Shown: positions 17,516 to 29,638 of the stretch, in pieces
Numbering within the stretch: position 1 is the stretch's first letter
How the letters are laid out: each line of letters opens with the position of its first letter
Source: a virus
IMG/VR virus record: IMGVR_UViG_3300021959_000265
Span: 1 to 29,638 of that record
DNA length: 29,638 nt
Reading direction: 5' to 3' (one strand)
The notes under the pieces: model-generated
The model's input: only the letters and a program-made list of their open reading frames with translations
Databases searched by the model: none
What the model was told of the DNA's origin: nothing
Made by a program: the position numbers and the translations under genes

Positions 17516-17848
17516 ATGCCCAACCCCGAAAACCTCCGACCCGCCAAAAAAGGCGAAGTGCGAAACCCCAACGGAAGGCCAAAGGGCTCACGCAACCGCA
17601 GCACCATCGCCCGCGAGTGGCTCGAGGTGACGCAGTACATCACGAATCCCATCACAGGGGAGAAGGAGAAGCTGGAGCAGCAGGACATCATGACGCTCGC
17701 CATCATCAAGAAGGCAAGGGACGGAGATGTTGCAGCGTACAAAGCCCTGCTCGATTCAGCATACGGCCAACCCCTTCAGCAGATACAGCAGGAGGTGTCC
17801 AAGATTGACGAGATTGAGATCGTCATCAAAGAGGCGGATGACTTTTGA
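17516..17848 (+). CDS. Small terminase subunit (DUF5681-like)
   Basis: A 110-residue protein with the N-terminal motif KKGEVRNPNGRPKGSRNRSTIAREWL typical for DUF5681 proteins, which occur as small terminase or packaging-associated genes. Helices follow (QDIMTLAIIKKARDGDVAAYKALLDSAYG), with a C-terminal QQIQQEVSKIDEIEIVIKEADDF. It is directly upstream of the large terminase and overlaps its start by four bases, the usual TerS position. It should bind pac DNA and recruit the large subunit. Confidence 0.85.
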   Translation: MPNPENLRPAKKGEVRNPNGRPKGSRNRSTIAREWLEVTQYITNPITGEKEKLEQQDIMTLAIIKKARDGDVAAYKALLDSAYGQPLQQIQQEVSKIDEIEIVIKEADDF

Positions 17849-18996
17849 AAGCACGCCTTGAGACGTCCGGCCTGTTCAGAAAGAACCTCGAGGCCACCGA
17901 ATCCATCGTCGTCAATCAGGGCGGCAGCCGATCGGGGAAGACGTACTCGATCCTTCAGGTGCTCATCATCAAAGCGCACCAGACAACAGGCAAGACGTTC
18001 ACCATCGCAAGGAAGACCCTCAAGAGCTTACGCTCCACAGCGATGCGCGACTTCTTCGAGATACTGGAGAAGGCAGGAATGTACGACCAAAGCCTCCACA
18101 ACAAGAGCGACAACATCTACTTCATCAATGGCAACCGCTTCGAGTTCATGGGGATGGACGACCCCCAGAAGAAACGCGGAGCGAAGAGACACATCCTATT
18201 CTGCAACGAGGCGAACGAATTGGCGAAGGAGGACTTCCTTCAGCTCGAGCTCCGAACGACCGAGCAGATATACATTGACTTCAACCCGTCCGACGAATAT
18301 CACTGGCTGTATGAGGATGTGATCCCCCGCGCCCACTTCATTAAGAGCACATACCGAAACAACCCCTTCCTCGATGCCCTCACCATTCAGCGCATCGAAC
18401 GCCTCAAGGAGACCGATCCCCAAGCGTGGCAAGTGTACGGCCTCGGAGAGAGGGCAATCAGCAGAGACAATGTATTCACCTTCGACGAGAGGGAGATCCC
18501 GAAGGAGGCGAAGCTGATGAGCATGGGCATGGACTTCGGATTCACCAACGACCCGACCGCGTTCGTTGAGGTGTGGCAGCAGGGGGATGACGTTTGGATC
18601 AGGGAACGCATCTACCGCACCGACATGACAAACCAAGACATCGGGCGCGAACTGGCGAACCTGAACATCGATAGACGCGACGCGATCTACTGCGACAGCG
18701 CAGAGCCCAAGAGCATCGAGGAGCTGCGACGCATGGGGTGGAATGTGCGCCCCGCAGACAAGGGCAAGGACAGCGTGAACGCAGGCATCCAACTCATGAA
18801 GACCTTCAAGCTGCACGTCGAGCCCTCGAGCACCAACCTCATCAAGGAGCTGCGCAACTACAAGTGGACGAAGGATAAGGACGGGCGCAACCTGAACAAG
18901 CCAGTCGATGCCTTCAACCACGCCATCGACGCGACGAGATACGCGATCTTCAGCAAGGTGGGCAAGCCGAATCATGGGAAGTATCACCTCAGATAA
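17845..18996 (+). CDS. terL: Large terminase subunit (PBSX-type)
   Basis: A 383-residue packaging motor. ATPase: Walker A GGSRSGKT (26-33), Walker B ILFCNE (117-122), then motif III-like TTEQIYIDFNPSD (138-150). RNase H-like nuclease: MGMDFGFTNDPTA with Asp230, IYCDSAEPKS with Asp284, and VDAFNHAIDATRYA with Asp355 and Asp362. All catalytic positions are present. The start is a TTG at 17845 overlapping the TerS stop, so translation is probably coupled. It cuts and pumps the DNA concatemer into the prohead through the portal. It lies far from the portal gene (4184), which is unusual. Confidence 0.95.
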   Translation: MKARLETSGLFRKNLEATESIVVNQGGSRSGKTYSILQVLIIKAHQTTGKTFTIARKTLKSLRSTAMRDFFEILEKAGMYDQSLHNKSDNIYFINGNRFEFMGMDDPQKKRGAKRHILFCNEANELAKEDFLQLELRTTEQIYIDFNPSDEYHWLYEDVIPRAHFIKSTYRNNPFLDALTIQRIERLKETDPQAWQVYGLGERAISRDNVFTFDEREIPKEAKLMSMGMDFGFTNDPTAFVEVWQQGDDVWIRERIYRTDMTNQDIGRELANLNIDRRDAIYCDSAEPKSIEELRRMGWNVRPADKGKDSVNAGIQLMKTFKLHVEPSSTNLIKELRNYKWTKDKDGRNLNKPVDAFNHAIDATRYAIFSKVGKPNHGKYHLR

Positions 18997-19025: not shown

Positions 19026-19745
19026 ATGCGCGAGATTAAAGTCATAGTCCCCACCTCGTGGGAGGACATCACCCTCGAGGCTTACATGAAGTTCAGCGCG
19101 ATCGACACCGACGCGAAGGAGGAGTTCATCCAAGTGAAAGCCCTCGCCTACTTCTGCGGCATCAACGAGCTCGACGCGATGGACATGAAGGTGAAAGACC
19201 GCGAGGCCATCATCGCCCAGATACTCGAGGTGCTCAACAGAGAGCCCGAGTTCACGCAAGCCTTCAGCCTCTTCGGCAAAGACTACGGCTTCCACCCCAA
19301 CCTTGACGAGATCACCTTCGGGGAGTTCATCGACCTCGAGAAGTACCAGTACAACATGGAGAGCCTCGACAAGATCATGGCGATCCTTTACCGCCCCATT
19401 GTGAGGAGCATGGGCGACCGCTACGAGATCGAGCCCTACAACGCGGACGGGGACAGCGAGGTGATCAAGAAGATGAGCGCAGGGACGGCCATCGCAGCCT
19501 TGCTTTTTTTTTATCGAGTCGGAACTCATTTGTCGATGCATATCCTGAAATCTTTGAGCCCCGAAGTGATGGAGGCATCGGAGGCGACAACTTCCTCAAA
19601 AAGTGGGGGTGGTTTGCAGCGATCCATCGGCTTTGCGACGGAGACCCTACAAGAGCTGATTCCATCACATCACTACCGCTTCATCGAGCGCTGTTCTGGC
19701 TTGCTTACGAGAGCGACCGGGATGAATACGAACGAAGAAGACTAA
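19026..19745 (+). CDS. Tail assembly chaperone, zero-frame product (G-like)
   Basis: A 239-residue protein starting at ATG 19026 (a GTG at 19020 is possible). The start MREIKVIVPTSWEDITLEAYMKFSAIDT, then VKALAYFCGINELDAMDMK and FGKDYGFHPNLDEITFGEFIDLEKY and AILYRPIV, match proteins I know from Bacteroidota siphoviruses ahead of the tape measure gene. After codon 159 the message has a T9 run; the zero frame stays open through FFYRVGTHLSMHILKSL to a polar C-terminus (ATGMNTNEED). Tail chaperones coat the tape measure during tail building and commonly use ribosomal frameshifting, see the overlapping frame at 19511. Confidence 0.75.
   Translation: MREIKVIVPTSWEDITLEAYMKFSAIDTDAKEEFIQVKALAYFCGINELDAMDMKVKDREAIIAQILEVLNREPEFTQAFSLFGKDYGFHPNLDEITFGEFIDLEKYQYNMESLDKIMAILYRPIVRSMGDRYEIEPYNADGDSEVIKKMSAGTAIAALLFFYRVGTHLSMHILKSLSPEVMEASEATTSSKSGGGLQRSIGFATETLQELIPSHHYRFIERCSGLLTRATGMNTNEED
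19503..19512 (+). promoter_or_regulatory. Candidate -1 ribosomal frameshift site (C T9)
   Basis: Zero-frame codons CTT TTT TTT TAT contain the slippery heptamer T-TTT-TTT. Both tRNAs can re-pair perfectly after a -1 slip, moving ribosomes into the frame that reads TTA TCG from 19511. No strong downstream pseudoknot was identified by eye. Confidence 0.65.
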
Positions 19746-19762
19746 AGCAGGCACATGGCTAA
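19511..19762 (+). CDS. Tail assembly chaperone, -1 frame extension (T-like)
   Basis: The -1 frame is open from upstream of the T9 run to a TAA at 19760, just inside the next gene. It contains no ATG, GTG or TTG codon after the slip point, so it can only be made by frameshifting. It encodes 83 residues with a clearly protein-like pattern: DNFLKKWGWFAAIHRLCDGDPTRADSITSLPLHRALFWLAYESDRDEYERRRLK. I recall the motif KKWGW-x-(7)-L ... PLH-x2-L-x2-L-x-Y-E from similar phages. The fused product would be about 245 residues. A sequencing error in the homopolymer is the main alternative. Confidence 0.65.
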   Translation, partial: LSSRNSFVDAYPEIFEPRSDGGIGGDNFLKKWGWFAAIHRLCDGDPTRADSITSLPLHRALFWLAYESDRDEYERRRLKQAHG

Positions 19763-20228
19763 TTTTTACAGAATCACCGGACAGATCAGGCAGGCGATCG
19801 AGGCGACGAGCAGGGTGAACACCATCACCTTCGGCAACCTCGGGGACGTTGATCTGAACAAACAGAACATCTACCCCATCGCCCACATCACCCCGGAGAA
19901 CTGCACCATGAACGGAGCGACCTCGACGTGGAGCTTCAACATCAGCATCTTCGACCAAGTTGATTTTAACAAGGATGACGTGCGGGATGTGCCTGTCTCC
20001 TTCCACGGGACGGACAACGTACAGGACATCTTGAACGACTGCGCCCTCACCTTCCACATATGGCTCGATGAGTTCAGGAGGGGAGATCGCCACGCGGACA
20101 ACCTTCAGCTCGAGGGAGGGGTAACGCTCCAGAGCTTCCTTGAGACACAGACGAACAGCCTCGCAGGGTGGAGCGCGACCATCAGCATCACCGCACCAAA
20201 CGCAACAACGACCGATGGCCTCTGCTAA
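19755..20228 (+). CDS. Tail completion/terminator-like protein
   Basis: A 157-residue protein: MANFYRITGQIRQAIEATSRVNTITFGNLGDVDLNKQNIYPIAHI, then a beta region STWSFNISIFDQVDFNKDDVRDVP, VQDILNDCALTFHIWLDEFRRGDRHADNLQL and a C-terminal LAGWSATISITAPN. This mixed fold pattern, an early helix, paired strands and a helix carrying DILND, is what I recall for the tail terminator or minor tail proteins of Bacteroidota siphoviruses. It overlaps the chaperone -1 frame by eight bases. Position between chaperone and gp10-like gene agrees. Confidence 0.65.
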   Translation: MANFYRITGQIRQAIEATSRVNTITFGNLGDVDLNKQNIYPIAHITPENCTMNGATSTWSFNISIFDQVDFNKDDVRDVPVSFHGTDNVQDILNDCALTFHIWLDEFRRGDRHADNLQLEGGVTLQSFLETQTNSLAGWSATISITAPNATTTDGLC

Positions 20229-24637: not shown

Positions 24638-24786
24638 TCACGGAAATCATCAAGCTGCTCCAGATGGAGGAGCACAAGGGAATAAGTAAAGACGTTGAAA
24701 TCGCGAAGGGGAGGCACTACCTCCCGACCACATGGAGGGGCGCGGTGAAGGCTATCAAAAGAATGACATGGCGAACGAAGTTATAA
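24634..24786 (+). CDS. Small basic hypothetical protein (50 aa)
   Basis: The frame starts four bases before the upstream stop and overlaps the tape measure start by 19 bp. The protein begins MITEIIKLLQMEEHKGISKDVEIAKGRHYLP and ends with a Lys/Arg/Trp-rich segment (TTWRGAVKAIKRMTWRTKL). The ATGA overlap supports translation. I recognise no family. A tape-measure-linked accessory or chaperone fits its place but is speculative. Confidence 0.65.
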   Translation: MITEIIKLLQMEEHKGISKDVEIAKGRHYLPTTWRGAVKAIKRMTWRTKL

Positions 24787-26525
24787 TTGAGCTCATCGCC
24801 CGGACAGAGGCGGCAGAGAAGCAGATGGAGGAGCTCAAGGATCAGATCAAAGACCTGACCGAGAGCCAGAAGAAAGCGCAGAAGAGCACCAACAGCCTCG
24901 TCAAGGGCTTCAAGGGTGTCGGCCTCGCCATGAAGGCGATGGGCATCGGCATCATCCTGAAGCTGTTCGACGCTCTGGGCAGCGCGATGGAGCGAAACCA
25001 AAAGGCAGCCGACCTCCTCACGACTGCGACCACGACCATCCGCATCCTGTTCGACGACCTCATCAAGCTACTCGAACCGCTCACGGACAGCCTCAAGCGC
25101 GTATTCACCGACCCCATCGAAAGCATCAAGAGCTTCGGGCAGACCATCAAGGAGTACCTCCTGAACGGCCTCGAGCAGATGGGCAACGCCATCGGCCACC
25201 TCGGGGATGCACTCACCGCGCTGATCGACTTCAACTTCGGAGGGGCAGCCATCGCAGCAAGGAAGGCAGGCGCGGACATGGTGGACGCATTTGTCGGAGT
25301 GGAAGAGGGAGGCATCGACGTGATCAAGCAGGGGCTCGAGGTGGTGAACGAATACGTCGCAGAACTACCTCAAAGAATCAGCAAGGCAGCAAAGCAAGCC
25401 ATCGAACTCGGCAAGCTAAACAAGGCCGCAGAGCTCGCAGAGGTGGAACGGCAACGCCTTCAGCTTGACTTCCAGAAGAGGGAGGAGCGACTGCGTCAAA
25501 TAAGGGACGACGAGTTCAGGAGCATCGAGGACAGGAAGCAGGCGAATGCTGACTTGTTGGCTCTGTTGAATGAACAAGAACAGGCGGAACGCAAGGCCGT
25601 CGACCTCCGCATCGCAGCGGCTCGGGCGCAGTTCGAGATGACAGGACTCCACGAGGACATGGTAGCCCTCCGTCAGGCAGAGCTCGAACTCATTGACCTC
25701 ACCGAGCGCATCGAGGGGCAACGCTCCGAGGCACTCACCAACAGGGTGGCACTTGAGAAGGAAAGCCTCGAACTGGAGCGCAGCAGAAAACTCACTCTGG
25801 AGGAGATCGCCAACATCGAGGCGCAGGCCGCAGTAGAGATGGAGACGAATAAACTCAAGCAGCTACAGAGTCAGCAGAAGCTCGAGACCGACATCCATAT
25901 GCAGCGGCTTGATCGTATCGGTCAAGAGCGTCTCGCAATGGCAGCAGCAGGGCAACAAGGAACGCAGGCATATCAGGACTTGATCAACGAGCAGAACAAG
26001 ATCGACGCTGAATATGAGGAGAACTCTTTGAAGCGCACCAAGCAGATGGAATCGTTGAAGAAAGAAGCACGGGTCTCACTCGCTCAAGATGCCCTTGGGG
26101 TCATTGGCGACATCTTCGGGCAGGAGAGCGCAGCAGGGAAGGCCGCAGCCGTCGCCTCGGCAACGATCGACACTTACAAGGCATTCACTAACGCCCTCGC
26201 GAACACGCCCCTGCCACCTCCCGGCCCACAGATCGCGGCAGGCTTGACCCTCGCCTCGGGATTCTCACAGGTCAGAAACATCTTGAGCACTCCAGTCCCC
26301 AACGGATTCGGAGGCGGTGGAGGAGGAGGCGCAGGCAGAGGGGGAGCACCCACGCCCACCATGCCGAACGTCTCCATCTTGGGAGGCAATGAAGCCATGA
26401 CGCAGGCCACGAGATCGCTCGCCCAGTTCGGGAAGAAACCCACCCGCGCCTTTGTGGTCAGCGGTGAGATCACAGACAACCAAGCACTCGACAGAAGAAT
26501 CGAACGAAACGCCTCCTTTGGATGA
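24768..26525 (+). CDS. Tape measure protein
   Basis: A 585-residue protein from ATG 24768 (the frame extends to 24732 but that ATG is within the small gene). N-terminal coiled coil (residues 5-45, ARTEAAEKQMEELKDQIKDLTESQKKAQKS) and a hydrophobic segment (50-75, GVGLAMKAMGIGIILKLFDAL). Long coiled-coil helices span about 205-445, with repeated Glu/Arg/Gln heptads. Then comes GKAAAVASATIDTYKAFTNALANTP..GPQIAAGLTLASGFSQVRNILSTPVP, a motif I know from tape measures of Bacteroidota phages, a Gly-rich stretch, and a tail with AFVVSGEITDNQALDRRIERNASFG. It sets tail length; 585 residues predicts a short tail of very roughly 85 nm. Confidence 0.85.
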   Translation: MANEVIIELIARTEAAEKQMEELKDQIKDLTESQKKAQKSTNSLVKGFKGVGLAMKAMGIGIILKLFDALGSAMERNQKAADLLTTATTTIRILFDDLIKLLEPLTDSLKRVFTDPIESIKSFGQTIKEYLLNGLEQMGNAIGHLGDALTALIDFNFGGAAIAARKAGADMVDAFVGVEEGGIDVIKQGLEVVNEYVAELPQRISKAAKQAIELGKLNKAAELAEVERQRLQLDFQKREERLRQIRDDEFRSIEDRKQANADLLALLNEQEQAERKAVDLRIAAARAQFEMTGLHEDMVALRQAELELIDLTERIEGQRSEALTNRVALEKESLELERSRKLTLEEIANIEAQAAVEMETNKLKQLQSQQKLETDIHMQRLDRIGQERLAMAAAGQQGTQAYQDLINEQNKIDAEYEENSLKRTKQMESLKKEARVSLAQDALGVIGDIFGQESAAGKAAAVASATIDTYKAFTNALANTPLPPPGPQIAAGLTLASGFSQVRNILSTPVPNGFGGGGGGGAGRGGAPTPTMPNVSILGGNEAMTQATRSLAQFGKKPTRAFVVSGEITDNQALDRRIERNASFG

Positions 26526-28951: not shown

Positions 28952-29638
28952 ATGGCAGGGAGCGAATCAAAGCCCGAGGGCGAACTCATCAAGAAGTACA
29001 TCGAGAAGCACCTCGACGACCTCAACGACAAGAGCGAACCACTCGGAAAAAAGACGCTCGCCCGCATCATCGTCAGAGATAACCCCGAGATGTTCACCGA
29101 GGACGACGTGGACAAAGTTCGACGGATGATTCGCTACTACACCGGACAGGGGGGAGAGAGGCAAAGGAAGAACAAGATCATCGACGCGCCACCCGCTCAC
29201 AGGGGTGCAGCGCAGATAAGGGGGAAGAGCATCCCCGAGAGCCATGCCCGCAGGCACAAGCCCTTCGAGATTGAGGGCAAGCGCATCGGCATCATCTCCG
29301 ACGTGCATATCCCATACCACGACCCCGCTGCCATCTGCGCAGCTCTGGACTATTTTCAGAAGAAGGAGGTGGACACCATCCTGATGAATGGCGACATCTT
29401 GGACTTTTGGAAGATATCCCGATTCCTGAAGAAAGGGAGCAAGCCTGACCTCGTTGAAGAGATCGAGGCGGGGCGTGAGTTCCTTGAGTGGCTGCGGTGG
29501 CAGTTCCCCGAGGCTCGCATTTATTACAAGCTCGGAAACCACGAGGCGCGATGGGAGCTGTACCTCTGGGAAAAGGCGGGGGAGATGGCCAAAGCCCTCG
29601 AGATGGAGTTCGGGCAGTCGCTCGGCTTCGCCCACTTT
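28952..29638 (+). CDS. Metallophosphoesterase, N-terminal part (continues at window start)
   Basis: The first 229 codons of the phosphoesterase completed at positions 131-520. Residues 1-75 form a separate helical region, KKTLARIIVRDNPEMFTEDDVDKVRRMIRYYTGQGGERQRKN, which resembles a small helix-turn-helix DNA-binding module. I recall this fusion in Bacteroidota phage phosphoesterases. The catalytic domain starts near residue 108 with RIGIISDVHIPYHD, then TILMNGDILDFWK and YYKLGNHEARWELYLW. The enzyme likely acts on a nucleic acid or nucleotide phosphodiester; the DNA-binding-like N-terminus supports that idea. It has its own promoter and an A-rich leader. Confidence 0.92.
   Translation, partial: MAGSESKPEGELIKKYIEKHLDDLNDKSEPLGKKTLARIIVRDNPEMFTEDDVDKVRRMIRYYTGQGGERQRKNKIIDAPPAHRGAAQIRGKSIPESHARRHKPFEIEGKRIGIISDVHIPYHDPAAICAALDYFQKKEVDTILMNGDILDFWKISRFLKKGSKPDLVEEIEAGREFLEWLRWQFPEARIYYKLGNHEARWELYLWEKAGEMAKALEMEFGQSLGFAHF
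29509..29638. repeat. Terminal redundancy, right copy
   Basis: This is the right-hand copy of the first 130 bases, with two mismatches. Reading through it, codon 229 of the metallophosphoesterase begun at 28952 continues directly into position 131 of the window. The overlap is therefore an assembly overlap of a circular map and not a second gene copy. Confidence 0.93.

Follow-up and report, generated by a model that had tools for sequence, protein, structure and literature searches.

The window analysed here, by which we mean the whole stretch of 29,638 bases of a virus record, contains a gene (19026 to 19745) in which a run of nine thymines (T9) is followed by two reading frames that are both open over the same DNA. 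We put at roughly two in three the probability that this is a G/GT-like tail assembly chaperone gene of a tailed phage of Bacteroidota, in which a slip chooses between two selected C-termini. If no slip occurs, translation would give a 239-aa protein consisting of an N-domain and a zero-frame tail of 77 residues. Slipping by -1 on T TTT TTT (19505-19511) would give a 245-aa protein in which the same N-domain is joined to an 83-residue helical C-domain. Judged from sequence conservation both proteins are probably made. By analogy with lambda, the products would chaperone the tape measure and the -1 C-domain may recruit tail-tube subunits, as the T domain does there.

The gene also seems to represent a widespread family of Bacteroidota phages, a broader view which we favour with somewhat less confidence. 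In this view one protein of tail morphogenesis would have two C-terminal domains, both functional and each under its own selection, encoded in overlapping frames over 55 to 77 codons. The slip would choose between proteins of similar length (almost the same in the clade of the window) instead of adding an extension to one of them.

Gene, slip run and genomic context

The window carries a direct terminal repeat of 129 bases (1-129 and 29509-29637, 99% identical), so that the record probably represents a tailed-phage genome in full, either terminally redundant or a circular assembly. The features of interest are:

17845..18996, + strand: terminase large subunit (PHROG terminase matches, best E=7e-39), directly upstream of the slip gene
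19026..19745, + strand: zero-frame gene, 239 aa, comprising a 162-residue N-domain and a 77-residue zero-frame tail, stop included
19504..19512, + strand: T9 slip run, with the in-frame heptamer T TTT TTT at 19505-19511
19511..19762, + strand: -1 frame C-terminal extension, 83 aa, predicted helical, stop included, without a start codon in the window
19512..19745, + strand: dual-coded stretch (zero-frame tail over -1 extension), with purifying selection on both frames in the window clade and the main clade
19755..20228, + strand: next gene, PHROG 30964 (unknown function), its ATG overlapping the end of the -1 frame
24732..26525, + strand: tape-measure-like protein (PHROG tail length tape measure E=3e-17, virion structural E=3e-20)

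An earlier note on this DNA had claimed two open frames past T-TTT-TTT, leading to products of similar length. Both claims are borne out: the zero frame runs to 19745 and the -1 frame to 19762, and the predicted products measure 239 aa and 245 aa (162 + 83 residues for the -1 fusion). As they differ by 6 residues only, a gel would miss the second one. The T9 run is preceded by C and followed by A (zero-frame codons CTT TTT TTT TAT), and the heptamer stands in the phase required for a -1 slip. The open stretch of the -1 frame begins at 19307 in the window and is devoid of ATG, GTG and TTG throughout. This agrees with the claim that the -1 frame has no start after the slip point, and an independent start in the window was rejected. 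Start-less -1 expression is not universal across relatives, as some ATG, GTG or TTG giving at least 60 aa in the -1 frame is present in 29 of the 103 representatives (<90% identity).

From base composition 0.005 T9 runs are expected on the + strand of the window, and one other is present. This second run (2911-2919) is intergenic, lies soon after the probable major capsid gene (1912-2862) and is perhaps part of a terminator.

For many long-tailed phages the earlier note placed such a gene just before the tape measure gene. Here it follows the terminase and is separated by four genes from the tape-measure-like gene at 24732. A location between the major tail protein and the tape measure gene, which is a G/GT-type feature, is not seen in the window; the distant homologue in Cellulophaga phage Ingeline lies nearer to the tape measure. 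In many relatives a counterpart of the gene at 19755..20228 is likewise found downstream of the slip gene.

Conservation of the slip site

Profile scans of IMG/VR returned more than 570 relatives each, and the 80 best of every scan were retrieved. The N-domain and the C-domain were each searched by their own HMM among the retrieved loci. A C-domain match was obtained in 218 of the 223 N-domain loci, in the -1 frame in all 218, and within this close family none of the two-domain loci is an in-frame fusion. Of the five N-domain loci without a C-domain match, four extend no further than the junction, and the fifth (L045) has an open -1 tail which the HMM did not reach. A frameshift, proposed in the earlier note as the way to express the -1 domain, is the only visible route to it.

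All 163 distinct junctions have poly-T as their slip site (T9 or T10, once T8). Among the 103 representatives 77 have T9, 25 have T10 and one (L031) has T8, and the further relative L045 has exactly T7. The -1 tail measures 79 to 93 codons in nearly all relatives. In 11 further IMG/VR contigs closely related to the window, mostly from different metagenomes, the T9 run is identical. The zero-frame stop of the window is kept in the 10 of these that are long enough (the eleventh, L006, ends inside the gene), and the length of the zero-frame gene is equal in all close relatives that cover it completely.

The pattern extends to cultured phages: the protein of the Nonlabens phages P12024L and P12024S is about 30% identical and has C-T9-A at the homologous codon. 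The slip site and the downstream domain in the shifted frame are thus kept at about 30% protein identity. Two Flavobacteriaceae assemblies (L234, L235) also show T9 with two open frames. A single-protein scan of genome contigs yielded one MAG locus, and a sample of 792 Flavobacteriaceae and Bacteroidota genomes gave few matches.

In P12024L (L027:5001-5695) and P12024S (L028:5010-5704) the gene is deposited as two hypothetical CDS with no frameshift annotated. The -1 half of the gene is likely missed by annotation pipelines in many Bacteroidota phages.

Length and openness of the zero-frame tail

The length of the zero-frame tail falls into groups: 77 codons in the clade of the window, about 55 codons in the main clade (with the same stop column in 116 of 155 aligned genes) and 16 to 25 codons in the P12024-like clade. 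At one main-clade locus (L201:1136-1636) the zero frame stops 6 codons past the slip, against 55 in its relatives, which reflects either an error or a natural loss of the zero tail. Because the length differs between clades (16-25 codons in one, and 6 in L201), a long zero tail is not needed everywhere.

Openness was evaluated by recoding the -1 protein with synonymous codons according to genome usage and comparing the zero-frame length. For the window alone the zero frame is open over 77 codons in 19% of the recodings, which is not significant (P=0.19), and chance stands as an explanation here. For the family it was rejected: the zero tail exceeds the length obtained by recoding at P<0.05 (median P 0.0075) in 89 of 102 representatives, most of them AT-rich, though these representatives are related and hence do not form 89 independent tests. 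The median number of third-frame stops over the dual stretch is 7, and in none of the 103 representatives is this frame open. The long zero tail in the family is not due to chance, and its significance comes from the relatives, not from the window alone.

Selection on both frames

For the main clade, rates were derived from codon-aligned pairs, not from a full phylogenetic model, and the counts of doubly silent changes are small. Relative to the expectation from the N-domain, synonymous change in the -1 frame amounts to 0.38 within the dual stretch and to 0.69 after the zero-frame stop, a ratio of 0.59 (bootstrap over columns 0.42-0.83). When the changes between close pairs are sorted by their effect on the -1 and the zero frame, in that order, the rate is 0.129 for those silent in both (SS), 0.0245 for those silent in -1 and changing zero (SN) and 0.0027 for those silent in -1 and making a zero-frame stop. 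It is 0.0142 for those changing -1 and silent in zero (NS), and 0.0064 for those changing both (NN). Omega was estimated at 0.17 (0.07-0.27) in the zero frame and at 0.11 (0.04-0.18) in the -1 frame.

The window clade shows 39 column changes, of which 23 are silent in -1 only, 11 in zero only and 4 in both, while one changes both; the corresponding weighted opportunities are 288, 295, 11 and 442. Variable -1 third positions number 20 of 75, against 90 of 135 in the singly coded N-domain (P=3e-8), and variable zero-frame third positions 15 of 75 (P=9e-11). None of the -1 third positions varies in the first 12 codons past the slip, whereas later both kinds vary; it seems that the frame under tighter constraint shifts along the dual stretch (P=0.03). 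A BLOSUM direction test shows no trend in the main clade (z=0.9). Its value of z=9 in the window clade is based on 14 changes only, with a variance that is probably underestimated, and is not relied on. Downstream RNA structure is not supported as the cause of the synonymous constraint, and would leave unexplained why stops are avoided in one frame.

Because synonymous sites are depleted, zero-frame stops are avoided and the codon-position patterns differ from those of singly coded DNA, both C-termini are seen to be under purifying selection in the main clade and the window clade, the groups with enough sequences to test. The suggestion that the same DNA codes for two conserved C-termini agrees with all three lines of evidence, and substitution rates in both frames give no sign that homologues conserve one frame only. 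With more than 150 distinct sequences, the family offers a large natural data set on one DNA stretch that would code for two helical domains.

Two other explanations of the paired frames have to be considered. As errors are common in homopolymers and the -1 tail clearly represents a conserved protein domain, it might be argued that the true T count is a different one and that the gene continues directly into the -1 tail, the homopolymer length error which the earlier note gave as its alternative. The relatives speak so clearly against it that we attach next to no probability to this explanation: T9 is shared by the window, the 11 close contigs, the cultured phages and the Flavobacteriaceae assemblies, the -1 relation is universal among the 218 two-domain loci with no in-frame version in the close family, and the zero tail itself is under selection. 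A search for T8 or T10 runs that make one frame continuous, carried out on the sequences of the relatives, did not refute the frameshift either. More weight, though still little, should be given to a real frameshift with the zero tail as a by-product, left open by the -1 protein and its codon use and inheriting its conservation from the -1 frame. Zero-tail motifs (such as NGxGINQ) and the shared stop indeed follow in part from the -1 motifs KWGWYQ and TKLN, and the window result (P=0.19), the clades with zero tails of 16-25 codons and the flat direction test in the main clade all fit such a by-product. Nevertheless, for 89 of 102 representatives a zero frame that stays open is a rare outcome when the -1 protein is kept and its codons are recoded. 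Also, changes silent in the -1 frame are depleted, those making a zero-frame stop even more so, the depletion is weaker past the zero-frame stop (ratio 0.59, 0.42-0.83), and in the window clade the -1 third positions vary far less than those of the N-domain. Taken together, a by-product is improbable, and the preferred reading is that of two selected C-termini.

Ribosome or RNA polymerase

We lean towards a slip at the ribosome rather than at RNA polymerase. Polymerase slippage on T9, giving an mRNA with U10, would also reach the -1 frame with the same outcome for the protein, and is a serious possibility, if the less probable of the two. At least nine Ts are found in 102 of 103 representatives, even where Ser, Thr or Ala precedes the phenylalanines and does not force the run, and nine is a run length at which slippage of bacterial polymerase on A or T has been described (PMC5009743); a further bacterial case was described on 11 As (PMC4256274). 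Conserved downstream structure is also lacking: among ten relatives, nine of the stretches of 90 nt past the slip, compared as pseudoknot-free folds, are no more stable than shuffles. The ribosome is favoured by L045 with exactly T7 and L031 with T8, by the phase of the heptamer, which is canonical for a tandem -1 slip on the ribosome, and by the residues [LVI]FF[YW], which alone extend the T TTT TTT heptamer to T9. Many -1 ribosomal frameshift sites have no downstream stimulatory structure. The sole unusually stable predicted fold past the slip among the ten relatives is at L062:4012-4101 (z=-3.3).

Function of the products

The zero-frame product matches PHROG 32199 (unknown function, E=7e-17), and 13 relatives weakly match PHROG 166 'tail protein'. 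The parts of the two products were folded separately, and the AlphaFold model of the -1 C-domain is all helical (pLDDT 82.5). For neither domain was a Pfam, PDB-sequence or convincing fold match obtained, including any to a known chaperone. The fold searches gave no PDB relative, and their VIA list (Z 4.9 or less, long helices) points neither to a relation nor to a new fold. A match in BFVD to an annotated tail assembly chaperone is weak (E=1.1, prob 0.47). By profile comparison the N-domain family has homologues among the single-ORF proteins of Duneviridae (hhalign 97%, E=1e-10); in Cellulophaga phage Ingeline two genes separate the homologue from the annotated tape measure.

The 'tail chaperone' label of the earlier note is less secure than its other claims: position in the structural module and architecture argue for it, and no fold or family match backs it up. 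A chaperone pair of the G/GT type is probable and the likeliest function, because a slip-split product is encoded in the structural module, the window shows no competing candidate directly before the tape-measure-like gene, and there are weak 'tail protein' matches. That the gene directly follows the terminase, that the tape measure is not adjacent in this genome and that known chaperones give no fold or family match could also mean that the two slippage products serve otherwise, for instance as connector, neck or minor tail proteins. We regard this as unlikely, albeit less so than the by-product explanation. A short and a slip-extended product from a tail module form the classic chaperone arrangement (PMC5009743), the single-ORF homologue in Ingeline lies two genes off an annotated tape measure, and directly 5' of the tape-measure-like gene no rival candidate is seen.

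Comparison with known systems

The N-domain has homologues in the single-ORF proteins of Duneviridae (PHROG 25418; Flavobacterium phages FPSV-F7 and laban6-1, Cellulophaga phage Ingeline), and the alignment ends at the slip-site residues. Unlike the split frames of the window, these homologues have one continuous frame of about 290-300 codons, and their C-part, though collinear with the -1 C-domain, shows no significant similarity to it (prob 3.8%). In Flavobacterium phage 6H (L246:498-1351) a stretch that is locally scrambled in comparison to FPSV-F7 splits the single-ORF homologue into two frames, owing either to a sequencing error or to a real disruption.

P12024L and P12024S (Inhavirus; genes _40/_41 and _38/_39) share a homologous N-domain, C-T9-A at the same codon and a homologous -1 C-domain. 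Their zero tail has 25 codons only, against 77 in the window, and the parts are deposited as two separate hypothetical proteins. In the papers searched, all from the open-licence literature, we found no description of a chaperone gene whose unshifted tail is as long as in the window and main clades (55-77 codons) and under selection.

The gene resembles P2 gpE / gpE+E' in its -1 slip, which in P2 is annotated in a tail gene before the tape measure. P2 E ends about 6 codons past the annotated shift site and has no long dual-coded tail, unlike the window gene. In lambda gpG/gpGT a -1 slip at a heptamer likewise yields a short and a C-terminally extended form from a structural module, although no sequence relation to the window gene was detected and the lambda G/T gene adjoins the tape measure, whereas the window gene is four genes away. 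The unshifted frame of lambda ends 5 codons past G GGA AAG; that of the window continues for 77 codons past T TTT TTT and is under selection. The early end of the unshifted product, common to lambda and P2, is not found here (77 codons in the window, about 55 in the main clade).

Overall, the gene likely works like a G/GT gene and belongs to that functional class. Its zero tail, judged by the substitution patterns, is a second selected C-terminus and not a remnant, unlike in lambda G/GT. The textbook picture of a short versus an extended protein stems from lambda and P2, where the unshifted chaperone stops within about six codons. In the family described here the dual-coded length, with both endings kept by selection, is about ten times that of lambda and P2, and the slip would become a choice between two C-termini.
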